A stretch of DNA of 64,000 nt from Pseudomonas sp. SJZ079 (GTDB taxonomy: Bacteria > Pseudomonadota > Gammaproteobacteria > Pseudomonadales > Pseudomonadaceae). Position 1 is the stretch's first letter. Every line of letters begins with the position of its first letter. Below the pieces are notes generated by a model that saw nothing but the letters and a program-made list of their open reading frames with translations, did no database searches and had not been told where the DNA came from. Where the stretch lies: the NCBI RefSeq assembly GCF_007993865.1, contig NZ_VIUH01000017.1, positions 1 to 64,000 of the forward strand. Direction: 5' to 3'. This document shows positions 43,268-47,868 of the stretch, in pieces. The translations under genes and the position numbers were made by a program.

Positions 43268-44425
43268 ATGCGTTGGGGCAGCTATTTCGCCGTCTGTTCG
43301 GCGGTCATCAGCATCGGCTTGGCGTTGGGTGTGACCATGCCGCTGGTGTCATTGCGCTTGGAGAGCTGGGGTTATGGCTCTTTCGCCATCGGGGTGATGG
43401 CGGCGACGCCGGCTGTCGGCGTATTACTCGGCGCTTCGCTGGCTGGACGGCTGGCCGGACGCTTGGGCACCACCGTGCTGATGCAGTTGTGTCTGCTGGT
43501 CGGTGCGCTGTCCGTGGCGCTACTGGCGCTGGTGCAGGACTACGCGGTCTGGCTGGTCCTGCGCCTGGTGATCGGTGTGGCCTTGACAGTGGTGTTCATC
43601 CTGGGCGAGAGCTGGATCAATCAGTTGTCGGTGGAGAAGTGGCGCGGTCGTCTGGTGGCGCTGTACGGCACCGGCTACGCGCTGAGTCAGTTGTCCGGGC
43701 CGTTGCTGCTCAATGCGTTGGGCACGGACGGCGACCGCGCCTTCTGGACCGGCACCGGCCTACTGATCGGCGGTTCGGTGCTGCTGCTCGGGCGTAGCGG
43801 GGCACCCAGGGTCGATGAGCACAGTGCCTCCGCTCGCGGCTTGGCGGCGTTCTGCCGCAGCATGCCGGCGATCGCCTGGGCGGTGGTGCTGTTCGCCGCG
43901 TTCGAGGCGATGATGCTGACCCTGCTGCCGATCTACGGCCTGCGTCAGGGCTTTACCCAGGAAGTGGCGCTGTTCATGGTCAGCGTGGTGGTGGTCGGCG
44001 ATGCGGCGCTGCAGTTGCCGATTGGCTGGCTGGCCGACCTGATGTCGCGGCGCACGCTGTTTCGCGGCTGCGGCCTGGTGTTGCTGCTGTCGAGTCTGAG
44101 TATTCCGCTGCTGTTGCATACCCCGCTGATCTGGCCGGTGTGGGTGCTGTTCGGCGCCAGTGCCGGCGGTCTCTTCACCTTGTCGCTGATCCTGATTGGC
44201 GAGCGCTTTCGCGATGACCAACTAGTGCGCGCCAATGCGCATGTCGCGCAGCTGTGGGGGATTGGCTGTTTGCTCGGGCCGCTGGCAACCGGCGCGGCCA
44301 GCCAGTGGATCAGCGGCCATGCCCTGCCGCTGTTGATGGCGGCGGGCGCGGCGGGCTTCGTCTGGCTGGCGTTTGTCGATAGCGGACTGGAGGGCAAGGC
44401 CCGGGTGAGCGCGCCGAGCAACTGA
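43268..44425 (+). CDS. MFS transporter (YcaD-like)
   Basis: A 385-residue major facilitator with about 12 predicted membrane helices. The start MRWGSYFAVCSAVISIGLALGVTMPLVSLRL and the loop GRLAGRLGTT after helix 2 are MFS-typical, and a second such loop occurs at ADLMSRRTLFRGCG. The ATG at 43268 after AAGGAG is chosen over an upstream in-frame start. It lies in a polyamine-catabolism neighbourhood, but transported substrate is not predictable. It converges on the MocR regulator gene. Confidence 0.88.
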   Translation: MRWGSYFAVCSAVISIGLALGVTMPLVSLRLESWGYGSFAIGVMAATPAVGVLLGASLAGRLAGRLGTTVLMQLCLLVGALSVALLALVQDYAVWLVLRLVIGVALTVVFILGESWINQLSVEKWRGRLVALYGTGYALSQLSGPLLLNALGTDGDRAFWTGTGLLIGGSVLLLGRSGAPRVDEHSASARGLAAFCRSMPAIAWAVVLFAAFEAMMLTLLPIYGLRQGFTQEVALFMVSVVVVGDAALQLPIGWLADLMSRRTLFRGCGLVLLLSSLSIPLLLHTPLIWPVWVLFGASAGGLFTLSLILIGERFRDDQLVRANAHVAQLWGIGCLLGPLATGAASQWISGHALPLLMAAGAAGFVWLAFVDSGLEGKARVSAPSN

Positions 44426-44484
44426 GAGCGGCTGCTCAGCGAGGTGCGTGAGCCGGCAGGGTGGCGGGCGCTCGCAGATCGCGT

Positions 44485-45906
44485 TCAGGGGTGGCTGTCG
44501 AGTAGCTCTGCCACGGTCGCGCCGACAATCCGTACCGCCTCCTCGAGGCGCGCGTCAGGCTTGGCCGCGTAGTTCAGGCGCAGGCAGTTGCGGTACTTGC
44601 CGGCGGCGGAAAAGATGCTGCCCGGGGCGATCTGGATCTTGTGCGGCAACAAGGCGCGGTTCAGCCGTTGGCTGTCGAATGCGCTGTCCAGTTCGAGCCA
44701 CAGCATGAAGCCGCCGTGCGGTTGGCTGATCCGCGTGCCGACGGGGAAGTAGCGGCGGACCCAGTCGGTCATCAGGTCACGGTTGCGCGTGTACTGGCTG
44801 CGCATGCGGCGCAGATGCGGCTCGTAATGACCGCTCTCGATGAATTCCGCCAGCGCCAGTTGCGGCAGCTGCGCGGTCATGCCGGTGCCGATGTACTTGA
44901 GGTGCAGCACTTGTTGCAGGTAGCGCCCCGGGGCAATCCAGCCGACCCGCAGGCCCGGAGCCAGGGTCTTGGAGAAGGAGCTGCAGAGCAGTACGCGACC
45001 ATCCTCGTCATAGGATTTGATGGTGCGCGGTCGTGGGTAGCTGTAGGCCAGCTCGCCGTACACGTCGTCCTCGATGATGGCCACGTCGTAGCGCTGGGCC
45101 AGGGTCAGCAAGGCCCGCTTGTTGGCCTCCGGCATGATGTAACCCAGCGGGTTGTTGCACGTCGGGGTGAGCTGGATGGCCTTGATCGGCCATTGCTCCA
45201 GGGCCAGCTCCAGCGCCTCCAGGCTGATTCCGGTCAGCGGATCGGTAGGCAGCTCCAGGGCTTTCATGCCGAAGCCCTTGAGCGCCTGCATCACCCCGTG
45301 AAAGCTCGGCGAGTCGACCGCGACTATGTCGCCCGGCTGGCAGGTGGCGCAGATCGCCGCCGACAACGCTTCGTGGCAGCCAGTGGTGATGACGATGTCC
45401 TGATAAGGAATCTGACAACCGGAATCCAGCAGCAGGCGCGACACCTGTTCGCGCAAGCCCGGGTCACCATGGATACAGCCGTAGCTCAGCTCGGCCACCG
45501 ACTGCCGGCGGCCCAGACGCGACAGCGAGCGCAGCAGCGGTTTCAGGGTCGGGCTGCTGATATCCGGCATGCCACGCCCGAGCTGCAGCACGTCACTGCC
45601 GGGCGGGATGCTGATCAGCTCCAGCACGTTATCCCACTGCGAGACATCCACCGGCCGTTGCACGCTACGGTTGATCTTCGGCAAGGCCGATTTCTGCCGG
45701 TTGGGCGGCACGAAATAGCCGGACTTCGGCCGCGGCGTGGCCATGCCCTGATCTTCCAGGTGCCGGTAGGCCTGCTGCACTGTGCTCAGGCTCACCCCGT
45801 GTTCGAGGCTCAGGGTGCGCACCGAGGGCAGGCGGTCACCTGGGCGGTACAGGCCCTGCTCGATTCGGGCGCCAAGCTGCTCGGCCAAGTCGACATAGAG
45901 TGTCAT
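44485..45906 (-). CDS. MocR-type regulator (GntR winged helix plus aminotransferase-like domain)
   Basis: A 473-residue MocR/GabR-class factor. The N-terminal GntR winged helix (about 1-72) reads GDRLPSVRTLSLEHGVSLSTVQQAYRHLE. The remainder resembles a class I aminotransferase with the PLP lysine in SSFSKTLAPGLRVGW. Such proteins sense an amine through PLP. The ATG at 45906 gives the natural start. The divergent small DUF1127 gene is probably its target. An inverted repeat CCATACAGAT/ATCTGTATGG lies between the two. Confidence 0.9.
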   Translation of the reverse strand: MTLYVDLAEQLGARIEQGLYRPGDRLPSVRTLSLEHGVSLSTVQQAYRHLEDQGMATPRPKSGYFVPPNRQKSALPKINRSVQRPVDVSQWDNVLELISIPPGSDVLQLGRGMPDISSPTLKPLLRSLSRLGRRQSVAELSYGCIHGDPGLREQVSRLLLDSGCQIPYQDIVITTGCHEALSAAICATCQPGDIVAVDSPSFHGVMQALKGFGMKALELPTDPLTGISLEALELALEQWPIKAIQLTPTCNNPLGYIMPEANKRALLTLAQRYDVAIIEDDVYGELAYSYPRPRTIKSYDEDGRVLLCSSFSKTLAPGLRVGWIAPGRYLQQVLHLKYIGTGMTAQLPQLALAEFIESGHYEPHLRRMRSQYTRNRDLMTDWVRRYFPVGTRISQPHGGFMLWLELDSAFDSQRLNRALLPHKIQIAPGSIFSAAGKYRNCLRLNYAAKPDARLEEAVRIVGATVAELLDSHP

Positions 45907-45935
45907 GACAGACGCCTCGTGGTTGAGTGAGCGAC

Positions 45936-45992
45936 CCATACAGATGCTGGGGAAAACTTCGATTCAGCCGCTGTGGGCGGCAATCTGTATGG
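45936..45992. promoter_or_regulatory. Candidate MocR operator pair in the MocR/DUF1127 intergenic region
   Basis: CCATACAGAT at 45936-45945 and its exact reverse complement ATCTGTATGG at 45983-45992 are 37 bp apart, between divergent genes. The spacing is too wide for a single-dimer site; two half sites contacted by a MocR dimer or looping is more plausible. Confidence 0.5.
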
Positions 45993-46078
45993 AGTAAATA
46001 ACTATTTTCTGAATCTGTCATGCTTTTTCTGGATTGACCATCATCATCTCCCATAGCGCTTTTAGCCAGGAGACGGAG

Positions 46079-46327
46079 ATGAGCGGGTTCAATGAGGTAG
46101 CGCTGGCTTTACGTCAGCAGGAACTGTTGGATGAGGTGCGGTTGCGGGTGGTGGCGAGCAGCACGGTCGAGGGGCGGGAGTTCGGTCAATCACGCTGGGC
46201 GCTGTTCTGGCGGCGGCTGAGCAGCCGTCGCGCCTTGCTGTCACTGACTGCCGAGCAGTTGGCCGATATTGGCCTGAGTCGGGAGCAGGCCTTGCGTGAG
46301 GCCTGGCGGCCTTTCTGGACGCTCTGA
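46079..46327 (+). CDS. DUF1127 small protein
   Basis: An 82-residue protein. The C-terminal DUF1127 segment includes LLSLTAEQLADIGLSREQALREAWRPFWTL, preceded by a tryptophan-rich RWALFWRRLSSRRA. The family occurs widely in proteobacteria; some members bind RNA and affect phosphate and carbon metabolism, but most are uncharacterised. The ATG follows AGGAGACGGAG. Divergent from the MocR gene and likely controlled by it. A hairpin overlaps its stop codon. Confidence 0.85.
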   Translation: MSGFNEVALALRQQELLDEVRLRVVASSTVEGREFGQSRWALFWRRLSSRRALLSLTAEQLADIGLSREQALREAWRPFWTL

Positions 46328-46352
46328 ATCTGCCAGGGCGGCAGATTCAGAG
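46322..46352. repeat. 13-bp perfect hairpin overlapping the DUF1127 stop codon
   Basis: CTCTGAATCTGCC (46322-46334) pairs with GGCAGATTCAGAG (46340-46352) and includes the TGA stop at 46325-46327. No T-tract follows, so it may block RNA decay or slow polymerase rather than act as a classical terminator. Confidence 0.6.
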
Positions 46353-46380
46353 TCGGTTCCTCGCCGGTTATCGGCCGGCC

Positions 46381-47694
46381 TCAGAGCAGTTCTTTCAGAC
46401 GATGCCAGAGCATGCCCAGCGCCAGCAGCGGCGAGCGCAGGTGTTTGCCGCCGGGGAAGGTCATGTGCGGCACCCGGGCGAACAGGTCGAAGCCCCGGCT
46501 GGCCTGGCCGGCAATGGCCTCGCCGAGCAGTTTGCCGGCCAGGTGGGTGGCGTTCACCCCATGCCCGGAGTAGGCCTGGGCGTAATAGACGTTGGCCTGA
46601 TCCTTGAGTCGACCGATCTGCGGCAGGCGGTTGGCGCCGATGCCGATCATGCCGCCCCATTGGTAGTCGATCTTCACGTCGTTCAGATGGGGGAACACGG
46701 TCAGCATTTTCGGCCGCATATAGCCGGTGATATCCGCCGGATCGCGGCCTGAGTAGTGGCAGGCACCGCCGAACAGCAGGCGGCGGTCGGCGGACAGGCG
46801 GTAGTAGTCGAGGGCCACGCGCTGGTCGCAGAGCGCCATGTTCTGCGGAATCAGGCTGCGCGCCTGTGCTTCGCTGAGCGGCTCGGTGGCGATCACATAG
46901 CTGCCGGCGGGCAGCACCTTGCCGCCGAGGGCCGGGTTGAGCTGATTCAGGTAGGCGTTGCAGCCGAGCACCAGATGGCTGGCGCGGACCACGCCCTGAG
47001 CGGTATGCACCTTGACCTCGGGGCCGTAGTCGATGCGGCTGACCGCCGAGTTCTCGAACAGCTGCACGCCCAGTGCCTGAGCGGCGGCGGCTTCGCCGAG
47101 GGCCAGGTTGAGCGGGTGCAGGTGGCCCGAACCCATGTCGATCAGGCCGCCGACATAGCGGTCGGAGCCGACTACCTGATGCATCTGTTCGGCTTGCAGC
47201 AGGCGCAGTTCGTGACGGTAGCCGAGGGCCTTGAGCTCGGCCAGGTCATCGGCGAAGCCGGCGAGGTGACTGGGTTTGTTGGCCAGGTCGCAGTAGCCCC
47301 AGGTCAGGTCGCAGTCGATCTGGAAGTGCTCGACCCGGCGGCGGACGATTTCCACGGCTTCCAGGCCCATCAGTTTGAGTTCGCGCACGCCCTCGGCGCC
47401 TATCACCGACTCGAACTGCTCGACCCCATGGCCGACCCCGCGAATCAACTGACCGCCGTTGCGCCCGCTGGCGCCCCAGGCGATCTTGCGCGCCTCCACC
47501 AGGATCACCGAGAGGCCTTTCTCGGCCAGCTCGATCGCCGTGTTCAGCCCGGTGAAACCGCCGCCGACGATGCACACATCGGCCCGCAACTCGCCGCTCA
47601 GGGGCGGGAAGTCCAGCTGGCGATTGACGCTGGCGGCGTAATAGGAGGCGGCGTGCTGGGTGGTGTGAGCGGGCTGGCGAACGCGGGCGTTCAT
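46381..47694 (-). CDS. FAD-dependent amine oxidoreductase, PuuB/PauB-like
   Basis: A 437-residue DAO-family flavoprotein. The N-terminal FAD Rossmann motif is CIVGGGFTGLNTAIELAEKG (about residues 41-60), and WGASGRNGGQLIRG follows as in PuuB. P. aeruginosa PauB4 and E. coli gamma-glutamylputrescine oxidase are the closest families I recognise. It would produce the aldehyde oxidised by a PauC-type enzyme. No signal peptide, so the site of action is cytosolic. It lies upstream of a YkgJ-like gene on the other strand; substrate not settled. Confidence 0.87.
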   Translation of the reverse strand: MNARVRQPAHTTQHAASYYAASVNRQLDFPPLSGELRADVCIVGGGFTGLNTAIELAEKGLSVILVEARKIAWGASGRNGGQLIRGVGHGVEQFESVIGAEGVRELKLMGLEAVEIVRRRVEHFQIDCDLTWGYCDLANKPSHLAGFADDLAELKALGYRHELRLLQAEQMHQVVGSDRYVGGLIDMGSGHLHPLNLALGEAAAAQALGVQLFENSAVSRIDYGPEVKVHTAQGVVRASHLVLGCNAYLNQLNPALGGKVLPAGSYVIATEPLSEAQARSLIPQNMALCDQRVALDYYRLSADRRLLFGGACHYSGRDPADITGYMRPKMLTVFPHLNDVKIDYQWGGMIGIGANRLPQIGRLKDQANVYYAQAYSGHGVNATHLAGKLLGEAIAGQASRGFDLFARVPHMTFPGGKHLRSPLLALGMLWHRLKELL

Positions 47695-47868
47695 GTGCGA
47701 AATCCTGATTATTGTGTTTGTAAAATTTTACGAAGCATAAGCGTGGTCTCTGTCTGTCGCCAAGGGCTGCGCGAAAAATACTGGGTTTTCGTCGACTTGA
47801 CCGGCGCTCTGCCGCGATCGGCGCGCGAGGCGAGGTAAGATGCGCGGGATTTTTCCAGGACGCCGCCG

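Follow-up and report, generated by a model that had tools for sequence, protein, structure and literature searches.

A divergent MocR and DUF1127 gene pair with a putative four-box operator in Pseudomonas sp. SJZ079 and its likely counterpart, yjiR-yjiS, in Escherichia coli

The stretch of DNA analysed here (the window) comprises 64,000 nucleotides of the genome of Pseudomonas sp. SJZ079 (contig NZ_VIUH01000017.1, positions 1 to 64,000), in which a gene encoding a MocR-type regulator and a gene encoding a small DUF1127 protein diverge from a gap of 172 bp (Table 1). The regulator has the architecture of the MocR/GabR subfamily, with an N-terminal GntR winged helix (Pfam, 55.8 bits, cut-off 27) and a C-terminal aminotransferase fold (Aminotran_1_2, 135.1 bits, cut-off 19.7), and its start at 45906 is supported by an alignment with YjiR of E. 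coli that starts from the first residue of both proteins. The small protein matches PF06568 at 34.4 bits, the Pfam gathering cut-off being 23.3. The original prediction, made from the sequence alone, had pictured the two genes as a regulatory pair sharing a 10-bp inverted operator and connected with polyamine breakdown; the length of the gap and the 82-codon open reading frame (ORF) were both confirmed, and of the overall interpretation the conserved pair and the operator have stood, whereas the simple inverted form of the operator and the polyamine connection have not.

The 10-bp inverted pair was found where it had been predicted, CCATACAGAT and its exact complement ATCTGTATGG being separated by 37 bp and having no other exact copies in the window. 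Instead of a simple inverted pair, however, the gap holds four boxes, with cores (CTGT/ACAG/CAG) spaced 25, 20 and 30 bp apart, of which boxes 1 and 3 are the predicted pair. Boxes 1 and 2 lie on the minus strand and boxes 3 and 4 on the plus strand, which is the <- <- -> -> class of MocR operator in Table 2 of Suvorova and Rodionov (2016, PMC5320631), listed there as rare (8 regulogs, 39 regulons). Boxes 2 and 4 are conserved about as well as the predicted pair, box 2 being worn: in the window's family most loci have ATTCAG, enteric bacteria often have ATGCAG, and some relatives have the full TACAG. The consensus of 117 distinct sequences with spacings of 45 bp (box 1 to box 3) and 30 bp (box 3 to box 4) is cCagTACAGAt-N7-AAA-N6-ATtCAG-N15-aTCTGTATG-N6-A.a-N8-tTGaaTCTGTa.tG, and the A-rich stretch between the boxes of each pair could aid bending or form part of a -10 element.

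Table 1. Genes, boxes and candidate promoter element at the MocR-DUF1127 locus of the window
Feature	Coordinates	Strand	Core position	Description
MocR-type regulator gene	44485..45906	-		473 residues; GntR winged helix and fold-type I aminotransferase domain; likely YjiR orthologue
Operator box 1	45936..45945	-	45940	CCATACAGAT; minus strand reads ATCTGTATGG; cCagTACAGAt in the window's family and enteric bacteria
Operator box 2	45962..45967	-	45965	ATTCAG (CTGAAT on the minus strand); 25 bp past box 1
Operator box 3	45983..45992	+	45985	ATCTGTATGG; 20 bp past box 2
Operator box 4	46011..46022	+	46015	GAATCTGTCATG; direct repeat, 30 bp past box 3
Candidate -10 element	46039..46044	+		CATCAT; putative; 24 bp past the box 4 core
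DUF1127 small-protein gene	46079..46327	+		82 residues; PF06568; occupies the position of E. coli yjiS

The inverted repeat alone is weak evidence. When the gap was shuffled 5000 times with its dinucleotides preserved, a perfect repeat of at least 10 bp appeared in 41 cases, and 43 of the 743 stretches of 172 bp in the window have one, frequencies that would allow a chance repeat in a gap conserved for other reasons. It becomes significant because it is conserved in relatives. Of 137 upstream regions drawn from the window's family and the Enterobacteriaceae, 127 have the four-box pattern (57/57 in the genus and family set, 25/30 in a hand-picked set and 45/50 in the enteric set), which is found in none of 1200 shuffles of 60 of these regions. 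Where it is present, boxes 1 and 3 are 45 bp apart in 121 of the 127 regions and boxes 3 and 4 are 30 bp apart in 126, and the alternative places of box 2 in the pattern search (18 and 27) arise from a second CAG nearby. The 137 regions omit L027, in which the MocR match is split, and count genome G171 twice (as L061 and L141); genomes G207 and G341 gave similar sequences. These counts are not independent because the sequences are related, and the weight of the conservation lies, on this comparison, in the agreement between two families. The same spacing in both families and the single sites returned by the genome searches described below contradict a chance repeat, which is highly improbable. 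Recurrence of the motif in orthologous gaps, on which the original prediction had in part staked itself, is thus observed, and by comparative evidence the motif appears to function as an operator.

Searches by genus and family covered the window's genus (Pseudomonas) and family (Pseudomonadaceae). At E<=0.001 the 82-residue protein was matched in 149 of 149 genus genomes and 213 of 298 family genomes, the weak matches among which may be other DUF1127 genes. In all 58 of the best-scoring DUF1127 loci from genus and family (window included), a favourable sample, a MocR orthologue with 66.7-100% identity in the matched stretch used is divergent from the DUF1127 gene, across gaps of 172-209 bp. 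A second set of 50 family genomes from 19 genera was hand-picked after the DUF1127 search to include genomes without a DUF1127 match; the regulator (E<=1e-130) is present in 34 of them, and at 33 of these 34 loci a DUF1127 gene is divergent (30/30 plus L197, L199 and L200, but not L198). A DUF1127 match at E<1e-6 was obtained in 32 of the 34 genomes with MocR (not in G191 and G235) versus none of the 16 without it, among which the best match was 1.0e-5 (G421); the Fisher p value for co-occurrence, 3e-11, ignores kinship and uses an E threshold chosen afterwards. A scan with YjiR returned 51 loci, nearly all titled as genera of Enterobacteriaceae, and with the partial locus L194 omitted a DUF1127 gene is divergent in 50 of 50 complete enteric loci, which with the 30 hand-picked family loci above makes 80 of 80. 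Regulator and small protein are thus a conserved pair, as had been proposed. One of the enteric YjiR-yjiS loci (L174; protein 76% identical to YjiR) is in a record titled Chryseobacterium sp., which is probably misnamed or a mixed assembly.

The regulator of the window shares with YjiR full-length similarity, the same group in a tree, the same divergent partner and the same operator, and is likely to be its orthologue. In the tree (57 rows, with a midpoint root for drawing only), a fork with support 98/96 unites 9 rows from enteric bacteria with 15 from the window's family, L199 and L200 falling just outside it. The group that contains the window and YjiR has 30 rows, of which 28 face DUF1127, and the other side of the tree has mixed partners, two of them DUF1127.

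A sequence-only profile (R1), built from 33 operators of the window's family alone, was used in genome-wide searches that scored part of the candidates of a first look (150 of 481 in the window's own genome, 74 per family genome, and 150 of about 1000-1200 in each enteric genome). The gap between the MocR and DUF1127 genes scored 68.6 bits (E 1.8e-18) in the window's genome, where the next site, upstream of a paralogous MocR gene, scored 13.1 bits. In a larger search with stricter filters, 20 of 59 family genomes had a site at E<1e-5, each of them one and none two. Applied to enteric sequences, the same profile gave 51 bits for the yjiR-yjiS gap of E. coli and recovered all 10 of the further enteric loci tried, at 33-58 bits. 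It also found one strong site (33-39 bits, next at most 13.2) in each of three whole enteric genomes other than E. coli K-12; in all three the coordinates place the strong site in the yjiR-yjiS gap.

Two further occurrences of the boxes were noted. In genome G161, an operator-like stretch (30.7 bits; boxes 1-3 present, box 4 worn) precedes a DUF1127 gene that does not adjoin MocR, two ORFs judged by eye to be LysR-like and RidA-like lying between them, and a second DUF1127 copy faces MocR across a gap in which the four-box pattern is mostly gone; this suggests that the operator serves the DUF1127 gene, also at a distance. In the window's own genome, a paralogous MocR gene of 39% identity (L195, G000:C5:177500-184000) has upstream boxes at the same 25/20/30 spacing.

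More distant relatives of the regulator connect the boxes with MocR itself. At E<=1e-80 a MocR was found in 61 of 369 genomes of the class, and boxes 1, 3 and 4 are present at strict spacing in 21 of 29 fetched relatives of 40-59% identity (excluding the window, and including L095 and L109, which are cut by contig ends), compared with 0 of 1450 shuffles. Only 5 of the 29 (L085, L086, L094, L096 and L098) have DUF1127 as the divergent gene; the others face EamA, LysE, PhzF, class IV aminotransferase, methyltransferase or unassigned genes, ten of these partner proteins having been confirmed by Pfam and the rest assigned by eye. In L085 (2938-4146) a PhzF-family gene overlaps the end of the DUF1127 gene behind the MocR operator, which appears to link DUF1127 to the PhzF partners of other relatives. 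Because these relatives retain the operator yet face EamA, LysE, PhzF, aminotransferase and methyltransferase genes, the DUF1127 gene may share a theme with the export or modification of amino compounds. The winged helix is kept slightly better than the aminotransferase domain (0.66 versus 0.55 in the enteric set, 0.53 versus 0.47 in the class), a small difference, though in keeping with an operator that stays constant while the partners change.

These relatives bear also on whether another factor, for example PhoB, occupies the boxes while MocR is a bystander. The PhoB half-site is CTGTCAT, as box 4 of the window reads, and a link between DUF1127 proteins and PhoR has been reported (PMC12501420). 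However, the best Pho box score in the window gap was 10/14, equalled by 98 of 1000 shuffles, and that in E. coli 8/14, equalled by 963 of 1000; and since MocR relatives keep the boxes while facing other genes, many of them in the families just named, the boxes go with MocR. Binding by another factor is therefore very unlikely. As a candidate feature of its own, the Pho box was rejected, no convincing tandem 11-bp repeat being present in the window gap or in E. coli.

The genes near the pair include some that we take to be kauB-, pauB4- and gabT-like (Pfam: Aldedh, DAO, Aminotran_3), and the regulator could belong to a polyamine/alanine catabolic neighbourhood, controlling these genes besides DUF1127. 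A kauB-like or pauB4-like gene lies within about 8 kb on one or the other side of the pair in 14 of 20 neighbourhoods, and MocR relatives are reported to control gamma-aminobutyrate and putrescine genes (PMC5320631). The pair, however, occurs without kauB-like and pauB4-like genes in the other 6 neighbourhoods (three genera) and in the E. coli stretch, the sole strong operator found in the genome is that of the MocR-DUF1127 gap, and the only two exact box copies in the window are both in this gap. The linkage is thus regional synteny and not a constant of the pair, because these genes are missing from 6 of 20 neighbourhoods and from E. coli; polyamine breakdown, offered by the original prediction as the reason for the pair, is not supported, and such a role of the regulator is unlikely. 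A polyamine regulon was also rejected as a candidate, there being no second strong operator among the scored candidates and the pair existing without the catabolic genes.

The aminotransferase domain retains residues that align with those of fold-type I aminotransferases, among them K313, which we take to be the lysine that binds pyridoxal 5'-phosphate (PLP), D280 and N252, presumably PLP contacts, and R443, presumably the carboxylate arginine. K313 and D280 are kept in 117 of 118 rows (one gap each), R443 in 117 of 118, and N252 in 116 of 118 (one serine, one gap); with these assumed roles, the PLP lysine and its partners that mark the MocR/GabR subfamily are in place. PLP and an alpha-carboxylate ligand are plausible because the four residues are kept, and the amine sensor of the original prediction is suggested by the fold. 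PA5283 of P. aeruginosa is a possible counterpart of the regulator. It was enriched by a PLP probe (PMC9321722), the only paper in the open PubMed Central (PMC) literature that was relevant by title in a search for PA5283/PA5284.

The best reading of these comparisons is an autoregulated MocR-DUF1127 divergon with one apparent target: a YjiR-type MocR probably controls a single divergent DUF1127 (YjiS) gene, and itself, directly via the four-box operator, and for the DUF1127 gene such direct control is well supported by comparison. In the mechanism that we infer, including the binding of MocR to the boxes, the assignment of boxes to promoters, the sign of control and an amino compound as trigger, PLP-bound MocR would sit on the boxes along the gap. 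On the side of the DUF1127 gene, boxes 3 and 4 are separated by three turns of the helix and would position MocR, with box 4 covering a poor -35 element. An amino compound reacting with the bound PLP would alter the grip of MocR and switch transcription of the DUF1127 gene, most likely on, and the MocR gene itself would be held down meanwhile.

The opposite sign of control is a possible, if less favoured, arrangement, in which MocR on the boxes would repress both genes by shutting both promoters and a ligand would release it. The E. coli promoters listed in PMC3946193 (yjiS TTAACC-15-TAAAAG, yjiR TTCACA-19-TTTTAT) cross box 3 and box 4, respectively, and autorepression is reported to be common among MocR regulators (PMC5320631). 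On the other side, MocR regulators are, according to the same survey, often divergent from positively regulated genes, and no good -35 element was found for the DUF1127 gene of the window. In the window, the -35 region of the DUF1127 promoter may coincide in part with box 4. The place of the candidate -10 element (Table 1) is the commonest best-scoring one in the genus and family set, yet in only 14 of 57 loci.

Several observations weigh against direct control by MocR of one divergent target. A strict scan of the gap gave no consensus sigma-70 promoter, and looser scoring gave no single conserved place across loci, for which reasons the promoter positions are tentative; the E. coli promoters that cross boxes 3 and 4 fit repression of both genes equally well. 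Ten of the 137 upstream regions lack the pattern; in nine of them a single box is worn or lost, and in L140 the pattern is mostly gone. The regulator is missing from 16 of the 50 hand-picked family genomes. The orthologue at L198 (G235) faces an MFS transporter gene with no DUF1127 gene adjoining, and L087, in the same tree group, faces LysE; L198 has a partial operator (27.8 bits, model positions 2-76) and is perhaps a partner swap. Two-box, weak or partial targets may have been missed, because R1 needs four boxes and candidates were partly scored. In E. coli, yjiR is reported to be induced in vivo in a pathogen and to be absent from some strains, and deleting it reportedly did not affect colonisation of the mouse gut (PMC6550539). 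The open PMC literature yielded no binding or expression data on this regulator and its DUF1127 target.

The MocR divergon as a kind is already known, as is, in general, the linkage of MocR with DUF1127: a COG5457 gene, written "YjjS-related" and here taken to be the DUF1127/YjiS family, is reported as frequent in MocR regulons (PMC5320631), the only paper found for COG5457 in the open PMC literature. YjiR is unnamed in the main text of that survey (0 occurrences). Within the same literature no paper was found on MocR and DUF1127 jointly, by title none on the pair yjiR and yjiS (PMC3946193 gives both promoters), and no account of an operator shared with E. coli YjiR across two families. YjiR is counted elsewhere among the E. 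coli transcription factors whose function is unknown, with yjiR reported active only under serine hydroxamate (PMC9308461), and it served as a negative control in a gel shift with YdcR (PMC9321722).

The original prediction called the small protein poorly known, which no longer holds entirely. Recent work connects DUF1127 proteins with PhoR, SsrA and RNA; those reported to bind PhoR include E. coli YjiS, and a yjiS mutant takes up phosphate faster (PMC12501420). YjiS of Salmonella is treated in PMC11707872 and DUF1127 also in PMC12218461, and the name yjiR does not occur (0 occurrences) in the two YjiS papers, PMC11707872 (Salmonella) and PMC12501420 (E. coli). Control by MocR is not universal among DUF1127 genes, since the LysR regulator VtlR is reported to act on some of them in an alphaproteobacterium (PMC12595884). 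On the basis of the published YjiS work and the shared operator, it can be speculated, as a rather doubtful extension, that a YjiR-type MocR is a dedicated switch by which phosphate uptake responds to the status of PLP or an amino compound: acting through the single four-box operator, it would set the level of a DUF1127 protein that restrains PhoR, as is reported of YjiS in E. coli. If true, YjiR would have one sole target, a defined operator and a physiological output, all of them shared between E. coli and the window's family. With a conserved operator and one apparent target per genome, what YjiR controls and senses becomes directly testable in E. coli.

Other features of the DUF1127 genes were noted. 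A perfect 13-bp hairpin, CTCTGAATCTGCC / GGCAGATTCAGAG, lies at 46322-46352 across the DUF1127 stop codon and, like box 4, includes GAATCTG; the fold of 46315-46385 has -38.4 kcal/mol (z -4.3). The hairpin was rejected as a further operator or a terminator, being without a T run and not kept in relatives: among 17 other loci there is an imperfect copy in L006, and there are different hairpins in L055 (9 bp) and L035 (12 bp). A structured RNA was likewise rejected, as 44400-47700 gave no Rfam match at gathering scores. The window's genome has three more DUF1127 genes (G000:C35:36981-37088; G000:C16:34407-34958), two of them near each other, with no match to the window's MocR within their 3.1-kb loci and no operator match.

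Among characterized regulators, GabR of Bacillus subtilis shares with the window's MocR the architecture of winged helix-turn-helix and aminotransferase fold, but is distant (84 bits over residues 9-423). NCBIfam names no equivalog for the window's MocR: identity with GabR was rejected (NF052285, 125.7 bits, curated cut-off 600), as was identity with PdxR, the best match (NF052282, 287.1 bits), which falls below its curated cut-off of 320. PdxQ regulons are reported to include DMT and LysE-type transporters, a PhzF-related protein and aminotransferases (PMC5320631), a range similar to that of the partners found for the other MocR relatives; the window's MocR differs from PdxR/PdxQ in having DUF1127 as its partner. 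The comparison with E. coli K-12 includes two differences: YjiS has 54 residues and matches the 82-residue protein over 27 residues only (52%), and E. coli has a fifth box, its core 18 bp before that of box 1, which as CCATACAGA was recognized by eye in most enteric loci (the L083 gap, L144-L193). In other respects the two loci are alike, since yjiR and yjiS are also divergent, across 176 bp, YjiR is 54.9% identical to the window's MocR over 470/470 residues, and their gap shares the four boxes at the same 25/20/30 spacing.

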